This document shows positions 6,275-62,906 of a DNA stretch of 64,000 nucleotides, one piece after another. The DNA comes from a virus, in IMG/VR virus record IMGVR_UViG_3300029267_002897, positions 115,064 through 179,063 of that record; one strand, 5' to 3'. The notes beneath the pieces are model-generated. The model ran no database searches. It was not told where the DNA came from and saw only the letters and a list, made by a program, of their open reading frames with translations. Both the position numbers and the translations under genes were made by a program. The stretch's first letter is position 1. Each line of letters starts with the position of its first letter.

Positions 6275-6507
6275 TACTGCTCAACCCTGAACGGAGTGGT
6301 CACCGGGTACTCCTCAACCGTAATCGGTGAGGTCTCATTGACCAACAGGTATGCCCGCTCCACCAGCGGAGGAAGGATGACCGACGTCTCCTCTCCACCT
6401 AATGACGTGTTTCGGAGCAGCGAGTTATTGATGTACTTGACCCACGCTTCTCCTCGTGGAGGAAGGTCGGCTTTACGCGGTAAAGTCTTGAGCGGTTCGA
6501 TGGCCAT
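6274..6507 (-). CDS. Small tail-operon protein (77 aa)
   Basis: No recognised family. Contains PRKADLPPRGEAWVKYINNSLL, then a hydrophobic beta-like C-terminal half. It is coupled to the next gene through a TAATG junction and sits two bases after the tape-measure-like gene. The position suggests a small tail-completion or baseplate component (inference only). Confidence 0.5.
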   Translation of the reverse strand: MAIEPLKTLPRKADLPPRGEAWVKYINNSLLRNTSLGGEETSVILPPLVERAYLLVNETSPITVEEYPVTTPFRVEQ

Positions 6508-6509
6508 GT

Positions 6510-9500
6510 CTATGCCTGCTGTTTGTTACGGAGCCATGCTTCCATCCCGGCTTCCTTGAGTAGCATAGCACCCTCTTTGAAAGTTTGCGCCGTCTCTACA
6601 TTGAAATGCTTGAACACTTCTGCGAACTCACTCTCTGCGGCCCCGACCGCCTTCTTGGATTCGCGTAACTTGTCCGCCTCAGCGCCGGTAGCCTCGCGGA
6701 TAGTCTTCTCCTCTTCGGCAGCAACCGCACCTTCACCCATACGACTGAGAGCCCGCATCAAGCCAAGCCGTTCCTGCTCTCCTCCGCCTCGTGCAGCCTG
6801 GATGCGCTTGACGAGGGCTCCATGTCCCGCTGCGGTGAGCTTCTGTAAATCCGCTTCCCCCAGTTCCGTAAGACTCCCAATACGTCCGACCTCTACGCCC
6901 CCTCCCGTAATCCCCTGTATCTGCTCCATCCCGGCACGCATCTGCGTCATCGCAATCGCACCACGCTGTACATCCTGATACGCCAGAAGGCCCGCGGCCG
7001 CCGCTCTGCCGCCATAAGCCTGCATTCCCTCTTGCTGCATCATGGCCCCAAAACGCTCACGGATGTCTTCCGAAACTTGTTCGCCTCCCACGTATCCCCG
7101 CTGCACTTTTTGAAGCGCTCGCCGGTACTGAGCTCGCGCCTCGGGGGAATCTTTTAGTCCCTTTTCACGGTAGAACTCTTGACGCGACCGTTTCTCCAAA
7201 TCTCGTCGCTGTTCCGTCGTCATTTCGCCGCCGAACGCCAATGCCGACATCAACATGTCACTGCCGGTAGCACGTTTGGAAAATTCACGAAACGCCTCGG
7301 ATTCTCCCCCTTCTGGAATGCCCATGAGACCTTCGAACTTGCGCATACGTTCCTGCGCCCGTTCCATCTCACCCGCCGTAAGTGCATTGACCCGCGCCAT
7401 CTCGGAGCCGAGAACAGTCTCCTCCGTCCGAGCTAACGCCTCTTTCGCTGCGGCATCTCCCGTCTGGGAAGCAGTCCCCAAAGCCATCGCTATCATCTGG
7501 TCCTTAACTTCAGTGGGAAGCGTCTCAAACTCTTCCACAACTTCTTCTTCGCTCCGACCAGTTCGTGCCGCGATTTCCTTGACTATCTCGTTACGCATCC
7601 CTCCCGCAGTGATATGGGTCTGCCACGCATCAACAATCGAGGCCCCTTCTTTTGCTCGGGCAGCAATCCGAGCCCCGCTCCCTCCCACAACGTGGAACGC
7701 TTCTCCCGCAGAAAGTCCAAACGCTTTCTCAACTTGCTCGTAAATATTCCCGGCAGCCTTACCTGTCGTAGAAATACCCCGAGCTTTCCGGAACATCTGC
7801 CGCGTAGGCTCTTCTCGTTTACGCGCTTTTGCTGCGAGACCTTGGTAGCGCGCCGTCATCCCTTCTGCGCCCTCAATCCCAAGCGCGGTACCGATATCCT
7901 CCGCCATCGTCAGACCCGCACCTACACGATTCCAGATAAGGTCTTCAGAATCAAAACCCCCAATAGCTCCAACGATCCCCACAGGGGTAGCCCAGTCAAG
8001 AACTCCTCCTGCCAATGGGGCAAAGGCATCCATTGCGCGAGCCGCTCCGCCCTCCACGCCTCCCCCGCGCATCAGTTCTCCGTACACATCGCGTCCGAAT
8101 TGCCCGTAGTCGTAATGTTCCGCCCCCAGTCCACCGCCCCCACCTCCACGTTGGAACTGTCGTAGCGTAGCCCGTTCCTCCCATGTGCGCTGAGCACGTT
8201 GCTCTCGTCGCGTCCCTGCCACGAATTCTTCTGGGGTCCGGCGATACATCCGACCTTCTTCTCGCGCAGATTCACGGTCACGCCATTCGGTAAACGCGTC
8301 CCAAGCACGTCCGACAGGCGCAGTTACGCGTGTGAAAGAGCCCGTCATCCGGTCCTGCCACTGTTTCATTGTGACATCGGAAGGAAGGGCCGCTGCTGCC
8401 AACTGCCCGAAAACGCCTGGAGCCGCATCTCGAATTTGCTGGCGTTGGTCACGTGCAAGCTCTTCCTGGCGCCGCTCAATCATCTGGCGTTGGTTCCGCC
8501 AGTACACGGGGTCGCTAGCCTCAACCATCATCTGCTCGGCAATTTCCTGACCGAACATAGCTTGTGCCCCAACTGCGAATGCCCCAGCCCCCTGTAACCC
8601 CAACCGCTCTCCGGTAGCCTGCGCAGAACGAAAGCGCATCGCGTTCATCTGGAAAGGAGACATCGCAGCCGCGGCTTGCGACTGAATCATGCGCTGTTGC
8701 AGCGGGAACATTGCCAGAGCACCTACCCCACCCTGCTGAACCGCAGCTCCCATGTTCTGCACCGCGTTCATAATCATTCCCTGTGCACCACCCTGACCAC
8801 CCATCATCTGGTTGAGCGCACCGTAGTTGACGCCCCAGCCTCCAGGCCCGTACTGGCCCGCGCCCGCTCCGAAAAGCGGCATCGAGAGCATCGCAGCTTG
8901 AGCTTGCATATTGCGCTGTGCAATCCCCTGTACGCCGCCAAAAAGCGCCTGCTGCATCGGAGAGAAGGTGCCCCCGGCAACACCTTGTCGTGCCGCAGCC
9001 CCGGCAAACATGCCGTAATTCATTCCAACCGCAGGGGCGAGTCCCGCTTGCTGGAAGGTCATCGCCCCCGGCATTCCGTACTGCTGCTGAAGCCCTTGCA
9101 CAGAGGTCCCCGCAGCCCGAGAGAACATCCGCATGTTCATCGCGGCGTTCTCCATATCATTGACGTCGAATCCCAGCTGTCGGAGTTGTCCCATCTGGCG
9201 AACAACATTCACCACGTCGGGTTCTTGGGTCAGCTGCATGAAGCGGCTAACCACACGACTGACTCGGCGCAGGTTACTCTGAATTCCGGAGATACCCTGC
9301 TCCATGTCCATCAAACCCGCCTGACCCGACATCTGCGTGATGCGCATCAGGTCCTGGCGGTTGAACATATTGCCGGTCTCACGCTGGAATCCTTCGTCTC
9401 CCGCCATCCGCTGGATTCCGCCCGCCAATTGCTGCGCGGCCTCTGGGGCTAACCCACGCCCTAACGGATGGAGTTGTGGGCCAGAAACTACCCAATCACG

Positions 9501-20764: not shown

Positions 20765-21144
20765 GGGTGGAGGCGCTGGGAATCGAACCCAGGTCCGCCA
20801 ATGCGTCATGTACAACTCGTTACGTGCGTAGCCCGTTCTGCTCTCTAGCCTCCATCACGGAGCCCAACTCGGGCTAGATTGGACCTCTTAGATTTTCGTA
20901 CTGAGGTGGGCGAGGAACAACCTCTCAGCCTTATCCTGTTAAGATGATGCCCTTCCGAGTACACAGGCACTTCTCGGTTGGACATTCCCTCAAGCAGCCT
21001 TGGCGACCGGAGCCGCCTCGACCTTCGGGAAGAGTTCAACTACGTTGTCGGCAGTTGTGGTTGAGAGTCTTTTTAATCCGCTGGCTCACAAGCGGGGCAC
21101 GCATTGCACACTTCATTCATCAACGTCGAAACCAAGTCACCCCC
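20765..21144 (-). ncRNA. ssrA: Transfer-messenger RNA
   Basis: On the minus strand the 5' end reads GGGGGTGACTTGGTTTCGACG, the conserved tmRNA start, and the 3' end has GGTTCGATTCCC followed by CGCCTCCA. GGGGGTG pairs with CGCCTCC over 7 bp with two G-U pairs. The resume ORF (21052-20990) encodes a 20-residue tag ADNVVELFPKVEAAPVAKAA and TGA. CCA is not encoded (ACCC follows). It rescues stalled ribosomes with SmpB; no smpB was seen. It begins 1 base after the Nudix stop. Confidence 0.92.
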
Positions 21145-30214: not shown

Positions 30215-32023
30215 TTACTCCTCCACCTTCATGAGTACGATGCGTTTACGCCGAATGTACGCAGTATTCCCGCCATTCTGACTAAAAATATCAAAGTCAA
30301 AATTATGAGAACCTGCAACTGTATTATTCAGAAAATAAACCCCCGCAAAGGTCTGCCACTCATTGTTTTCCAGGTCTTCAGGTTCGTGCGCTACTTGGGA
30401 TATGACCGTTGTGTCGTCGAGTTCGAGTTTCGCGTGCACTTTATCGGTACCGTTACCGGATACAATCTCAGAAGAAAACCAAAGCACGTACTTGGCAACT
30501 TCGAGTGTGGGAGAAAAACGCCACGCTAGTACCCAAGACCCTGACGTAGTGCTATCTTGCGTATCTTCTGACCCTTGAATAACTGTCGGCGGTCCGCTGC
30601 TCCCCCCGCCTACCGCACTGACAGGAACTTTTCTTTTTGCGCCATCTGACGCCCGCTCCATCAAAAGCACGTCGGTCCCTCCAGGAGCGGCTTCATTTAT
30701 AAGACCTGTAACATCCCCGACACGTGCCATGGCCATGTACTGGAGATGGTCGTCATCATTAAGACCAGAAAGATTACCGTGGTCATTGACGCTACCGGTA
30801 CTCGCCGCAGTGAACGTACGGTGATCTACGTAGTCAGCACTAAGACTCGACACCGTGCGCGCCTTGACCGAATTGGTGTATGTCGCCTTTGTCTGAAAGA
30901 TGATAGTACCTAGAGGGGTTATCTCTACCGTCGGAAAACCGCCCAATACCAAATTAGACAATTCTACCGAAGCACCCACGCGCGCTTGTGGCAAATTCCC
31001 GTATTCGTTCTGCCCCTGAATAGCGATAACAGGGCGAGCAGCGTCATTGGTAGCAAACAAATGTGCCAGCACGTAGTCACCATCAGTGACTTGCGTCTGC
31101 TGCCACGAACCTCCGGTGAACTGGTTGTACGCTAATCGATTCGCCGGATTTCCTAGATACTGTCTTACGGGAAAGTTCGTTGCCGTGAACTGCCTCCAAA
31201 CCGGAGTAGCCCCGTCCTTGTAATAAACAGGTATCTGCGCAGGAGCTGTGTCCGCTGCTATATCAAACGTGAGGTCCTCATCCCGGATTACCCCCGCCGT
31301 GTATCCCGCCTGCGCGTGAGTATCGAGTGACCCGTCTTGGTCCGTTAGCAGTCCATCAATCGCCAATCCTGTTATCCAGGCCGTACCTCTAACCAGGTGC
31401 AAGAGTGCGTGCGTCTGCCCGTCCATGGTGCAACCATGGCGCTCATCCGCGAAATAGATTTGCTTGGAGTTAGACGCGTCCCAGTAAACGATTGCCACTA
31501 ATGCTTTTTCGTAAAGCAGATTGATGTCGAAAGTCGTGGTTTCAGTGAGTGTGTCCCCATCAAAATAGAGGTAATGCAGCCCCTCGTCTATAGAGATCAC
31601 CTTCGTCTGCGAGGAAGACTTTACGTGCTTTACACCGGAAATGTAATAGCTGAACTCACTCACCGCGGGTTCGATGGTAAACGTGCGACTCCCGTCAACG
31701 AAGGAAATCACACTATCGTCACGTGTAGGAAATCCCGTGGGCTCACTCATATCCGCAAACTGCGTGAGGTCGAGTAAATCCCCTATCGGGTGCTTGTGTG
31801 GCCCAGCCTCCTGGACGATAGGAACTAGGTCACCTTCGTCATCTTTGATGATGATATGCCCCGCATCGATGAGCGCTTGAAGGTCACGTGACGATTGAAC
31901 CTCGTCCTCCGTGAACTCATCCATGAGGTCAAAGTCCACAGTAGGATGCGGGAAGGACCGCGCTCCCAGGTCATCAACTATCACAGGGTCGAGGGTGCCA
32001 GTCGTTGTGAGGTAGAGACCCAT
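30215..32023 (-). CDS. Tail fibre protein (602 aa)
   Basis: Has the hallmark DHGNLSGLNDDDHLQY near 412-427, common in phage tail fibres, then an Ala/Gly region and a beta-rich tip (TLEVAKYVLWFSSEIVSGN). N-terminal 80 residues may be the attachment domain (HKHPIGDLLDLTQ). Beginning of its message comes from the 32,655 gene, whose stop it overlaps. Confidence 0.75.
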   Translation of the reverse strand: MGLYLTTTGTLDPVIVDDLGARSFPHPTVDFDLMDEFTEDEVQSSRDLQALIDAGHIIIKDDEGDLVPIVQEAGPHKHPIGDLLDLTQFADMSEPTGFPTRDDSVISFVDGSRTFTIEPAVSEFSYYISGVKHVKSSSQTKVISIDEGLHYLYFDGDTLTETTTFDINLLYEKALVAIVYWDASNSKQIYFADERHGCTMDGQTHALLHLVRGTAWITGLAIDGLLTDQDGSLDTHAQAGYTAGVIRDEDLTFDIAADTAPAQIPVYYKDGATPVWRQFTATNFPVRQYLGNPANRLAYNQFTGGSWQQTQVTDGDYVLAHLFATNDAARPVIAIQGQNEYGNLPQARVGASVELSNLVLGGFPTVEITPLGTIIFQTKATYTNSVKARTVSSLSADYVDHRTFTAASTGSVNDHGNLSGLNDDDHLQYMAMARVGDVTGLINEAAPGGTDVLLMERASDGAKRKVPVSAVGGGSSGPPTVIQGSEDTQDSTTSGSWVLAWRFSPTLEVAKYVLWFSSEIVSGNGTDKVHAKLELDDTTVISQVAHEPEDLENNEWQTFAGVYFLNNTVAGSHNFDFDIFSQNGGNTAYIRRKRIVLMKVEE

Positions 32024-32655
32024 TATCGCCTCCTCAAGATAATCGTACCGCTGGGCGCAGAAATAGCCGTCCCGTTACAGTAGAACTGGAGCTCGTCCCC
32101 CGCGTCAACGTCCACGGCAATCGTATCGTCATACGCCTTGTCCGCACCCCCGGAAGACAGCGACGCAATCACCGTTGCGCTGTTGTTCTTTCGAATCTCC
32201 AACGTCCAGGTTTCAGCTCCGGTGGTCGCTAGGCTAATAGCAACAATCCTGGCGTCGAACGCCATGACGTAGCCCGCCAAATTTGTTGGGACCCCTCCCG
32301 GCCCCCGCAAATACACGTCGGTGATGTCAGCGCCCTGACGCCCAGCCGCCAAAGCAAAAACGTCAAGCGTGTACCCGGCCACAATGTTTTCGAGCGCGTC
32401 TTTTACGCTCTGCCCGGGAACACTGGAGTCGTTAATAATTTTGCTGGCCGGACCATTGAAGGCCGTATAGAGGATGCGCCCTTCTATCTGGTGCCAGTCG
32501 AGTTGGGGCTTGATGCGGTCGTACTGCGAGTCCATCATCTCCTGGACTTCAGTCTCTCCCGGGGCAACCGGCATCGTCAACCGCCCCTCTGTAGGGTACG
32601 GGTCCTGGATAACAATGACTCCCCCGCTGATGTTTTCTACCGAAACCGTGTACAC
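32023..32655 (-). CDS. Fibre-operon protein (210 aa)
   Basis: GTG start at 32655 with GGAG 7 bases upstream, inside a one-mismatch palindrome. Starts MYTVSVENISGG, then a Gly- and Ala-rich end with beta character (AETWTLEIRKNNSATVIASL). First gene of the fibre operon. Probably a fibre-attachment or fibre-like protein. Confidence 0.55.
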   Translation of the reverse strand: MYTVSVENISGGVIVIQDPYPTEGRLTMPVAPGETEVQEMMDSQYDRIKPQLDWHQIEGRILYTAFNGPASKIINDSSVPGQSVKDALENIVAGYTLDVFALAAGRQGADITDVYLRGPGGVPTNLAGYVMAFDARIVAISLATTGAETWTLEIRKNNSATVIASLSSGGADKAYDDTIAVDVDAGDELQFYCNGTAISAPSGTIILRRR

Positions 32656-32698
32656 ACCATTACTCCGTAAATGTAGTTACCGCGTGAACATCAGGTAA

Positions 32699-32727
32699 AG
32701 TATAGGCGGATGTTCTCGGACCAAAAA
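32699..32727 (-). promoter_or_regulatory. Sigma70-like promoter for the fibre operon
   Basis: TTTTTG (32727-32722) and TATACT (32704-32699) 17 bases apart. The -35 lies in the T run of the RNA-2 terminator, so the RNA end and the promoter overlap. Confidence 0.4.
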
Positions 32728-33113
32728 GAAAGGACGAGCTGCCAGCGTATCAGGCTGGGGCTCGTCCTCGTTCACGTTGGGTTTATGCCCGTGGTCGTCA
32801 CAGTCCCCGAAGGGCGCTGCCACTCAACTTGTGCACGGGAATCGGCTCAACCATAGTCCTGCGAACCGACTGCCAGCCCCACGTCGGCATAATTTAGCCC
32901 GGGACATTCTGGCAGCAGGCTTCCCGTAGAAACGCTGCGACCCTTAACATTAATTGGTTGTGAAACTTGTGAGTTTCAGTCAGGCAATTTGGGTCCCTCC
33001 TTTCACTCATGGGTCTACAACCGTCTGTGTTGGGACTGTCCCGACAGTCCCCGTAGCTGCCGCCGAAGCGGCACATGCATAGTGCGGCGTGAAAACATAG
33101 ACACGCCGCATGA
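32722..33113 (-). ncRNA. Large structured RNA of unrecognised class (RNA-2)
   Basis: About 390 bases with no plausible gene. An extended -10-like TGGTACAAA (33119-33129) would start it near 33113, and a 9-bp hairpin (33083-33110) opens it. Others: GGGACTG/CAGTCCC (33032-33051), GAAACT/AGTTTC (32962-32977), and TGCCGC-TTCG-GCGGCA (33058-33073) and CCC-TTCG-GGG (32805-32814), both C(UUCG)G only on the minus strand. Long-range helices: 32909-32915 with 32870-32876, 32788-32793 with 32834-32839, 32864-32869 with 32842-32847, 32939-32943 with 32991-32995. Ends in a terminator. Class unknown. Confidence 0.72.
32723..32767 (-). terminator. Intrinsic terminator of RNA-2
   Basis: Minus strand GGACGAGC (32767-32760) pairs with GCTCGTCC (32739-32732), with an internal CCAGC/GCTGG, then TTTCTTTTT. 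Confidence 0.75.
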
Positions 33114-33118
33114 CACAT

Positions 33119-33129
33119 CTTTGTACCAC
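33119..33129 (-). promoter_or_regulatory. TGGTACAAA element before RNA-2
   Basis: GTGGTACAAAG on the minus strand, one variant of the TTGGTATCAG family, 6-9 bases before the first hairpin of RNA-2. Confidence 0.45.
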
Positions 33130-33131
33130 AG

Positions 33132-33491
33132 CTAGTGAATATTTTTCAAACCAGATTGCGCAGTGGCAACATGAATCTCATCCTGGTCGGGAACCTTCTC
33201 CATACACTCGAGATGGAAGAGGACATCCTCGGCAACATCATCCGCAAACGCTTCGAGGTCCACAGAGTCCCCCAAGTATTCCTGTGCCACCGCGGCAATG
33301 GAATCGACCAGGATTTGGACAAGCTCATTCGGAGCAAGCTGGGGATAGGGCTTCATCCCGGGTGCAACGAGACGTCGCCCTTGTATCTGCAACGAGACCG
33401 GCTCATCCGCGTCCAGGTCTACGTCTCTCGTCAACCTCTCCGTAATCACTACGGTGATGTGCCGCCCTATGTTTTTGGTCTCATCACTCAT
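33132..33491 (-). CDS. Hypothetical acidic protein (119 aa)
   Basis: Beta N-terminus (HITVVITERLTRDVDL) and helical middle (ELVQILVDSIAAVAQEYL). Acidic overall. Overlaps the upstream zinc-ribbon gene by 8 bases. No family recognised. Confidence 0.55.
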   Translation of the reverse strand: MSDETKNIGRHITVVITERLTRDVDLDADEPVSLQIQGRRLVAPGMKPYPQLAPNELVQILVDSIAAVAQEYLGDSVDLEAFADDVAEDVLFHLECMEKVPDQDEIHVATAQSGLKNIH

Positions 33492-61843: not shown

Positions 61844-62906
61844 GGTCTGCGTAAACGTAAGTGCCCAGTACTATACTCCATTTACTAAGAACATACAAGG
61901 TCCGAAATCTCACCGTAGAGGCGGCAACTGCGGTGCAACGCATCGTCACCGGCCCATCGGCCAATGTTCTCGGCACCTTAGAGCCTCACCGAGAAGAAAA
62001 CGTATGAGGTATGCTGCTTGAACAGTTTCCTCAATCATTGCTGTAACTTATACCCTAACAGCACCGGCCTTTCGACCAGGTATATCGTGCCCTTGCATTA
62101 AATACGAACTATATATCTCAAAACGGCTAACCGCAGGTTTTCATTGAGCTTCTCTACATTCCGTAGATGAAGATGGAGTCTAATCAAGGGTCTTTAGCCC
62201 CCCTCTTGCACCCAAAAAACCACCTACTCTTCACACCCCGATTCAATACTTACATCGCATGCCCGATCCTTACATATACCCACATGAGCAATTACGGCTA
62301 ATTACGGTCCACGAAATAAAACAAATTTCACTTGCACAGGTGTCCTATTATATTATTTATCTTAATAAGAATAGTAGGTTTAAGGAAGGGTAGGAAACTT
62401 ATACAAGCCCGATACTCTTCTAAACCTTTTAAACTATTGAACAATAAAATATAGTCAACCAATCCAAAACTGCAAACTTCCACACTCTATTTCAACCCCT
62501 TTTATACCACCTCTAACCCCTGTTAGGGGTGTTTAACCGGCCGCCGAAAACGTCCGGGCGTTCTCCCAACTACCCCTACTTTCTCAGGTTTCCAGATACC
62601 CGCAAGGTTACGCACCCTTAACCCTATCAAGACCCCAACTACCTGTATACTTTACGTTTTACGCCGTCAAACCCCTTTTTACAGACTACTCTTTCGCCCT
62701 CTATTCTACCTAGACTATCGCACTTCGTTTACAACCGAAATAAAGTCGATAGGTTCCAGGGCCGGTGCCGTAGAAGACCCGAGTTTGTCGCAATTGTTAT
62801 CCGCGTAATAACACCTCTGCTCCAAACCCGAACCTTTACGGCACCTTTCCCTGCACCCCCCTCTTATTTAAGTACTCCCCTACCAGAATTGTAACTTTAC
62901 AGTATA
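61844..62906. other. AT-rich gap with no gene
   Basis: About 1 kb without a credible ORF. The plus strand is rich in C, T and A and poor in G. Seen inside: an AT-rich block (62343-62390), AATTACGG twice (62290-62307), a small hairpin ACCCC-TGTTA-GGGGT (about 62515-62531), and a one-mismatch dispersed palindrome (62658-62670). A regulatory or replication-origin role is only a guess. Confidence 0.4.
61870..61898 (-). promoter_or_regulatory. Sigma70-like promoter for the leftward block
   Basis: TTGTAT (61898-61893), 17 bases, TATAGT (61875-61870), about 87 bases before ATG 61783. Confidence 0.5.

Follow-up and report, generated by a model that had tools for sequence, protein, structure and literature searches.

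Between the genes ORF119 and ORF210 of a 179-kb virus record lies a gap of 476 nt, and this locus raises the question of whether the gap holds a gene for a structured RNA or only the folded end of a neighbouring message. The window analysed here is the stretch of 64 kb that spans bases 115064-179063 of that record. In the gap, a structured non-coding RNA of ~390 nt had been proposed on the minus strand (RNA-2, a segment of 392 nt at 32722-33113), and it was evaluated by fold, coding and strand tests. We consider that RNA-2 probably exists as an RNA gene. The evidence from the gap, the coding signal, the strand asymmetry, the promoter and the terminator supports a non-coding, independently transcribed and structured RNA read from the minus strand.

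Coding signal and search for relatives

The gap is bounded, on the minus strand, by ORF119 (33132-33491), an unknown protein with no Pfam or PHROG relative, and by the tail-like gene ORF210 (32023-32655). When scored against the codon usage of the phage itself, the ORFs over the RNA-2 segment are near zero or negative, with the best reaching +4.2 in total. A 74-aa minus-strand ORF in the gap obtains -25, versus +21 for ORF119 and +29 for ORF210. This is in agreement with the preliminary description, according to which no gene fits this region.

The same description had recognised no known family and had proposed an Rfam search together with a homologue search and covariance analysis. No family of Rfam 15 was matched at the gathering thresholds, and a search of 601 bases with permissive filters at E<=10 returned nothing beyond partial matches at chance level (E 2 and 7.7), so that the statement on families stands within Rfam 15. 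The homologue search was also run and gave no homologue in phage, plasmid, IMG/VR or GTDB sequences. By blastn at E<=1, the segment is unmatched in a set of 50,697 phage records and in another of 72,556 from plasmids. Three different 15-16-mers, scanned as patterns against IMG/VR, hit 37, 8 and 9 loci; at none of these could the similarity be convincingly extended past the seed, and the best (L046) is located within a coding ORF. A 19-mer was found in none of the GTDB genomes. A covariance model built from the single sequence of the core finds no sequence but itself in the 179-kb record, and has no match in the relative contig described below nor among 56 other loci.

The only other RNA found in the window by ARAGORN and Rfam is a tmRNA (20766-21144, minus strand). 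The presence of two unrelated large RNAs, which had been regarded as unusual, is less odd than it seemed because the one that is recognisable is an ordinary tmRNA. Its tag, ADNVVELFPKVEAAPVAKAA, is unusually long, and blastn among phage records gave no relative. Directly after the tmRNA, the segment 20508-20765 (minus strand) is purine-rich, RNA-like and apparently non-coding, with a fold z of -1.7 and no Rfam match at E<=5.

Predicted fold and sense strand

On the minus strand, RNA-2 is predicted to open with three hairpins, of 9 bp (hairpin 1, 33083-33110), of 6 bp with a C(UUCG)G loop (hairpin 2, 33058-33073) and of 8 bp (hairpin 3, 33032-33051). These are followed by a long arm with internal loops (GGUUGU...ACAACC, 32956-33022) and by a multibranch core (32779-32943), where a GGGU/ACCC helix closes four branches. 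The predicted 3' end is an intrinsic terminator (32722-32769), made of a 15-bp stem (10+5, 32769-32730) and the U tract UUUCUUUUU. The MFE fold contains at least ten stems, which confirms the earlier count of at least nine helices, as the stem and the U tract confirm the terminator.

The whole segment (32722-33113) reaches an MFE of -159.8 kcal/mol on the minus strand (z -4.29, with 0/100 shuffles as low), and a fold z of -3.38 is obtained for the plus strand. Hairpins 1 to 3 and the terminator do not by themselves fix the sense, because they are stable on either strand. The core test was performed on 32775-33031 alone (257 nt), leaving these elements out, and here the fold z is -2.4 for the minus strand versus +0.2 for the plus strand. 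The ensemble diversity of the minus strand is 22.6, versus 61+-20 in shuffles (1/120 as low), while the plus strand is ordinary, with 48/120 shuffles as low. The tmRNA, used as a positive control of similar size from the same phage, gave a weaker signal than the RNA-2 core (9/120 sense, 62/120 antisense). Among other 257-nt segments of the window, 7/420 are as well defined as the core and 4/420 are also as stable, which puts the empirical p between 0.01 and 0.02 and is supportive, not decisive.

In this 257-nt middle part, the centroid is identical to the MFE structure. Nonetheless, the fold of the core is a prediction and not a fact, because a rival 12-bp long-range pairing (UUAUGCC-ga-CGUGG / CCACGGGCAUAA) would cost only 2.9 kcal/mol. 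According to PMC8250186, structure predicted from a single sequence alone is not accepted evidence of functional structure.

It had been proposed that two C(UUCG)G hairpins form only on the minus strand and that this fixes the sense of the RNA. The hairpin at 33073-33058 is indeed clean, and is confined to the minus strand. The second is weaker: CCC-UUCG-GGG near 32814-32805 is able to form C(UUCG)G, and the MFE fold favours a register shifted by one. The minus sense itself is retained from the core fold and the promoter, the UUCG loops alone arguing weakly for it.

Promoter type and relative contig

Just upstream of the segment lies TGGTACAAA (33120-33128, minus strand), an extended -10 promoter element of the phage type TGGTAYAAR, with an optional -35-like TTGAAA at 33144-33149 (minus strand, 18-nt spacing). 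Hairpin 1 begins 10 nt past TGGTACAAA. A promoter placed so that the transcript starts at the 9-bp hairpin had been described before, and it agrees with this spacing and with the support that the motif type receives elsewhere in the genome. In the window there are 6 copies of TGGTACAAR versus 0.6 expected, and the 179-kb record (G000) contains 14 of TGGTAYAAR. The sites include 11328 (plus strand), 24546, 33128, 49414 and 62509 (all minus strand) in the window, and about 7138 and 8004 (minus strand) and 61995 (plus strand) in G000. With RNA-2 excluded, a Shine-Dalgarno sequence and an ATG follow within about 30 nt at 5/13 sites, as counted by reading their contexts, versus 2.6% of random positions (binomial p about 1e-5). 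Three of these five are found directly behind an intrinsic terminator (about 7138, 8004 and 164477 of G000, all on the minus strand). Given this enrichment and the sites behind terminators, TGGTAYAAR appears to be a genuine class of promoter in this phage, with the form of an extended -10 box. All five supported sites read TGGTAYAAG and the RNA-2 site ends in A, not G, and several other occurrences sit within genes. From the computational point of view, RNA-2 carries what an autonomous gene would have, namely its own promoter (TGGTACAAA, not TGGTAYAAG) and an intrinsic terminator.

A TGGTATAAA box at 62509 (minus strand) is located behind a terminator-like hairpin, in a stretch of about 1 kb without convincing genes and partly A+T-rich (61844-62906). 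It is possible that this stretch is a further RNA or a replication origin.

Protein-guided searches of IMG/VR and GTDB gave a single relative, contig IMGVR_UViG_3300014914_000004 (L002-L004). The proteins that flank the gap are 64% (ORF161), 44% (ORF95) and 66% (ORF210) identical to those of the record. ORF119 and RNA-2 are absent from L002, which is syntenic on both sides, and only about 120 nt separate ORF95 from ORF210 in it. These consist of a terminator (about 7270-7318) at the same place as that of RNA-2, followed by a GCCTATACTTT box and a TTTACGGAGTAAT element, both of which precede ORF210 in the record as well. In the window, the promoter-like GCCTATACTTT is at 32697-32707 (minus strand), and its conserved counterpart is at 7326-7336 of L002. 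ORF210 thus seems to be served by a promoter of its own, located past the terminator of RNA-2. RNA-2 is dispensable for the common gene plan, because the relative lacks it together with ORF119. Judged from this comparison, ORF119 and RNA-2 would form an accessory, moron-like block of about 0.7 kb, situated before an old terminator, or a block lost from the relative.

This block is flanked by an 18-nt inverted repeat (83%, 32719-32736 / 33463-33480), possibly by chance. The repeat was rejected as transposon ends, given that one of its arms coincides with the terminator tail, which L002 shares. The relative contig is apparently QMZE01000001.1 (L084), binned in a MAG labelled Archaeoglobales. This is likely a misbinning, because bacterial-type signals and a tmRNA are present in the phage of the window.

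A dispersed 13-bp palindrome, TTTACNNNGTAAA, has 23 sites in the window at <=1 mismatch versus 0.9 expected, for example at 6472, 12297, 24936, 35784, 41408, 45013, 49451 and 61373, and at 32659-32671 before ORF210. Exact TTTACGSNGTAAA has 18 strand-wise matches in the 179-kb record, versus 0 for the reversed control, and 2 in the relative. The palindrome has the look of an operator/stoperator- or centromere-like site that a phage DNA-binding protein would bind.

Alternative readings and known systems

The first alternative is that the segment is a cis-acting 3' UTR, the structured tail of the ORF119 operon, where the hairpins protect the mRNA, the terminator ends the operon and TGGTACAAA is incidental. 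The arrangement of the genes is compatible with it: ORF119 and the end of ORF95 overlap, as genes of a single operon may do, the stop codon of ORF119 is only 18 nt ahead of the proposed start of RNA-2, and in L002 a terminator closes the upstream operon at this position. In that relative, however, a bare terminator suffices. A stand-alone RNA is favoured over the 3' UTR because the promoter type has independent support in this genome and because the multibranched core goes far beyond the needs of a protective hairpin. We regard the 3' UTR as unlikely, while still a reading to be taken seriously.

Chance folding, in which the gap would be intergenic DNA with no function, possibly left over from an insertion, that carries a few strong inverted repeats as well as the terminator of the operon, is quite unlikely. 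It would fit with the lack of a homologue in the searches and in the nearest relative, with the strong hairpins being stable on both strands and with the four other segments that are equally extreme in both fold measures. Against it, a promoter, a start-proximal hairpin, a strand-specific core and a terminator coincide in a single gap.

A cis-acting leader, in which RNA-2 is a put-like or riboswitch-like antiterminator or attenuator controlling how much transcription runs past the terminator into the ORF210 tail genes, would have the classic order of promoter, structured leader, terminator and gene, with the start codon of ORF210 about 70 nt past the terminator. The terminator arms, however, pair with upstream RNA-2 no better than chance (shuffle fractions 0.21 and 0.23), and ORF210 has, past the terminator, a promoter-like box of its own that is conserved, and does without a leader in L002. 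Attenuation of ORF210 by RNA-2 is unsupported, with an antiterminator pairing p of about 0.2 for either arm, and the leader is decidedly improbable. A base-pairing RNA, antisense or sponge, directed at phage or host messages would suit the size and the terminator but is highly improbable, given that complementarity within the 64-kb window extends over 12 nt at most, as the null expectation predicts, and that little of RNA-2 is predicted to be unpaired; antisense control of phage genes is unsupported at this chance level of complementarity.

The favoured reading is that of a stand-alone structured RNA gene, accessory together with ORF119. Transcription would start from TGGTACAAA, the extended -10 promoter of phage type located where ORF119 ends, and would stop at the intrinsic terminator ahead of ORF210. 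The gene may have arrived, or have been kept, as one block with ORF119. We infer that the RNA is produced during infection and that it acts in trans. Its hairpins and folded core would be offered to a protein as a decoy or a scaffold, rather than pairing with phage mRNA, and the protein partner may belong to the host, to a defence system or to the phage, ORF119 being one candidate. Taken as a whole, this explanation has about an even chance of being correct. Given the RNA, protein binding in trans is a tentative proposal, somewhat doubtful, based on the exclusion of other roles and not on a recognised motif. The large structured minus-strand RNA of the preliminary description is therefore upheld as an observation, through the fold, the gap and the signals; its interpretation is supported in part, computationally. 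RNA-2 is a concrete transcript to seek, and the in-genome motif TGGTAYAAR makes its expression testable. If it is real, it would be an accessory RNA gene that the phage has acquired near its tail genes.

Several known systems resemble RNA-2 in part. Membership of the tmRNA, GOLLD/ROOL/OLE and HEARO/guide RNA families was rejected, their models being unmatched. The tmRNA (RF00023) is of similar length and lies on the minus strand of the same window, and RNA-2 differs from it in that no tag reading frame and no tRNA-like domain were detected and the tmRNA model was unmatched. HEARO and the IscB- and TnpB-associated guide RNAs are, like RNA-2, multi-hairpin RNAs with a length of a few hundred nt, located next to a gene; there was no HEARO match at E<=10, and the neighbours of RNA-2 have no such nuclease domains. 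Leaders of the put/nut antitermination, riboswitch and attenuator types are likewise structured from the start of the transcript and followed by a terminator, but RNA-2 is much longer, its antiterminator pairing is not above chance and a promoter-like box precedes the gene downstream.

The large ornate RNAs GOLLD, ROOL and OLE (PMC12286853) share with RNA-2 a large size, many helices and a non-coding nature. RNA-2 is shorter than any of them, and none of their models matched at E<=10. Sizes are ~600 nt for OLE, ~600 nt for ROOL and ~800 nt for GOLLD, and GOLLD and ROOL are known from phages. That RNA-2 is the first member of a new class of large, independently transcribed phage RNAs, a folded protein-binding machine or decoy acting for instance against host defence and carried in a mobile cassette with ORF119, is speculative and rather unlikely. 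To our knowledge, few large structured phage RNAs have been described, most of them found only through many relatives, and comparative pipelines overlook orphans that, like RNA-2, carry a promoter and a terminator of their own.
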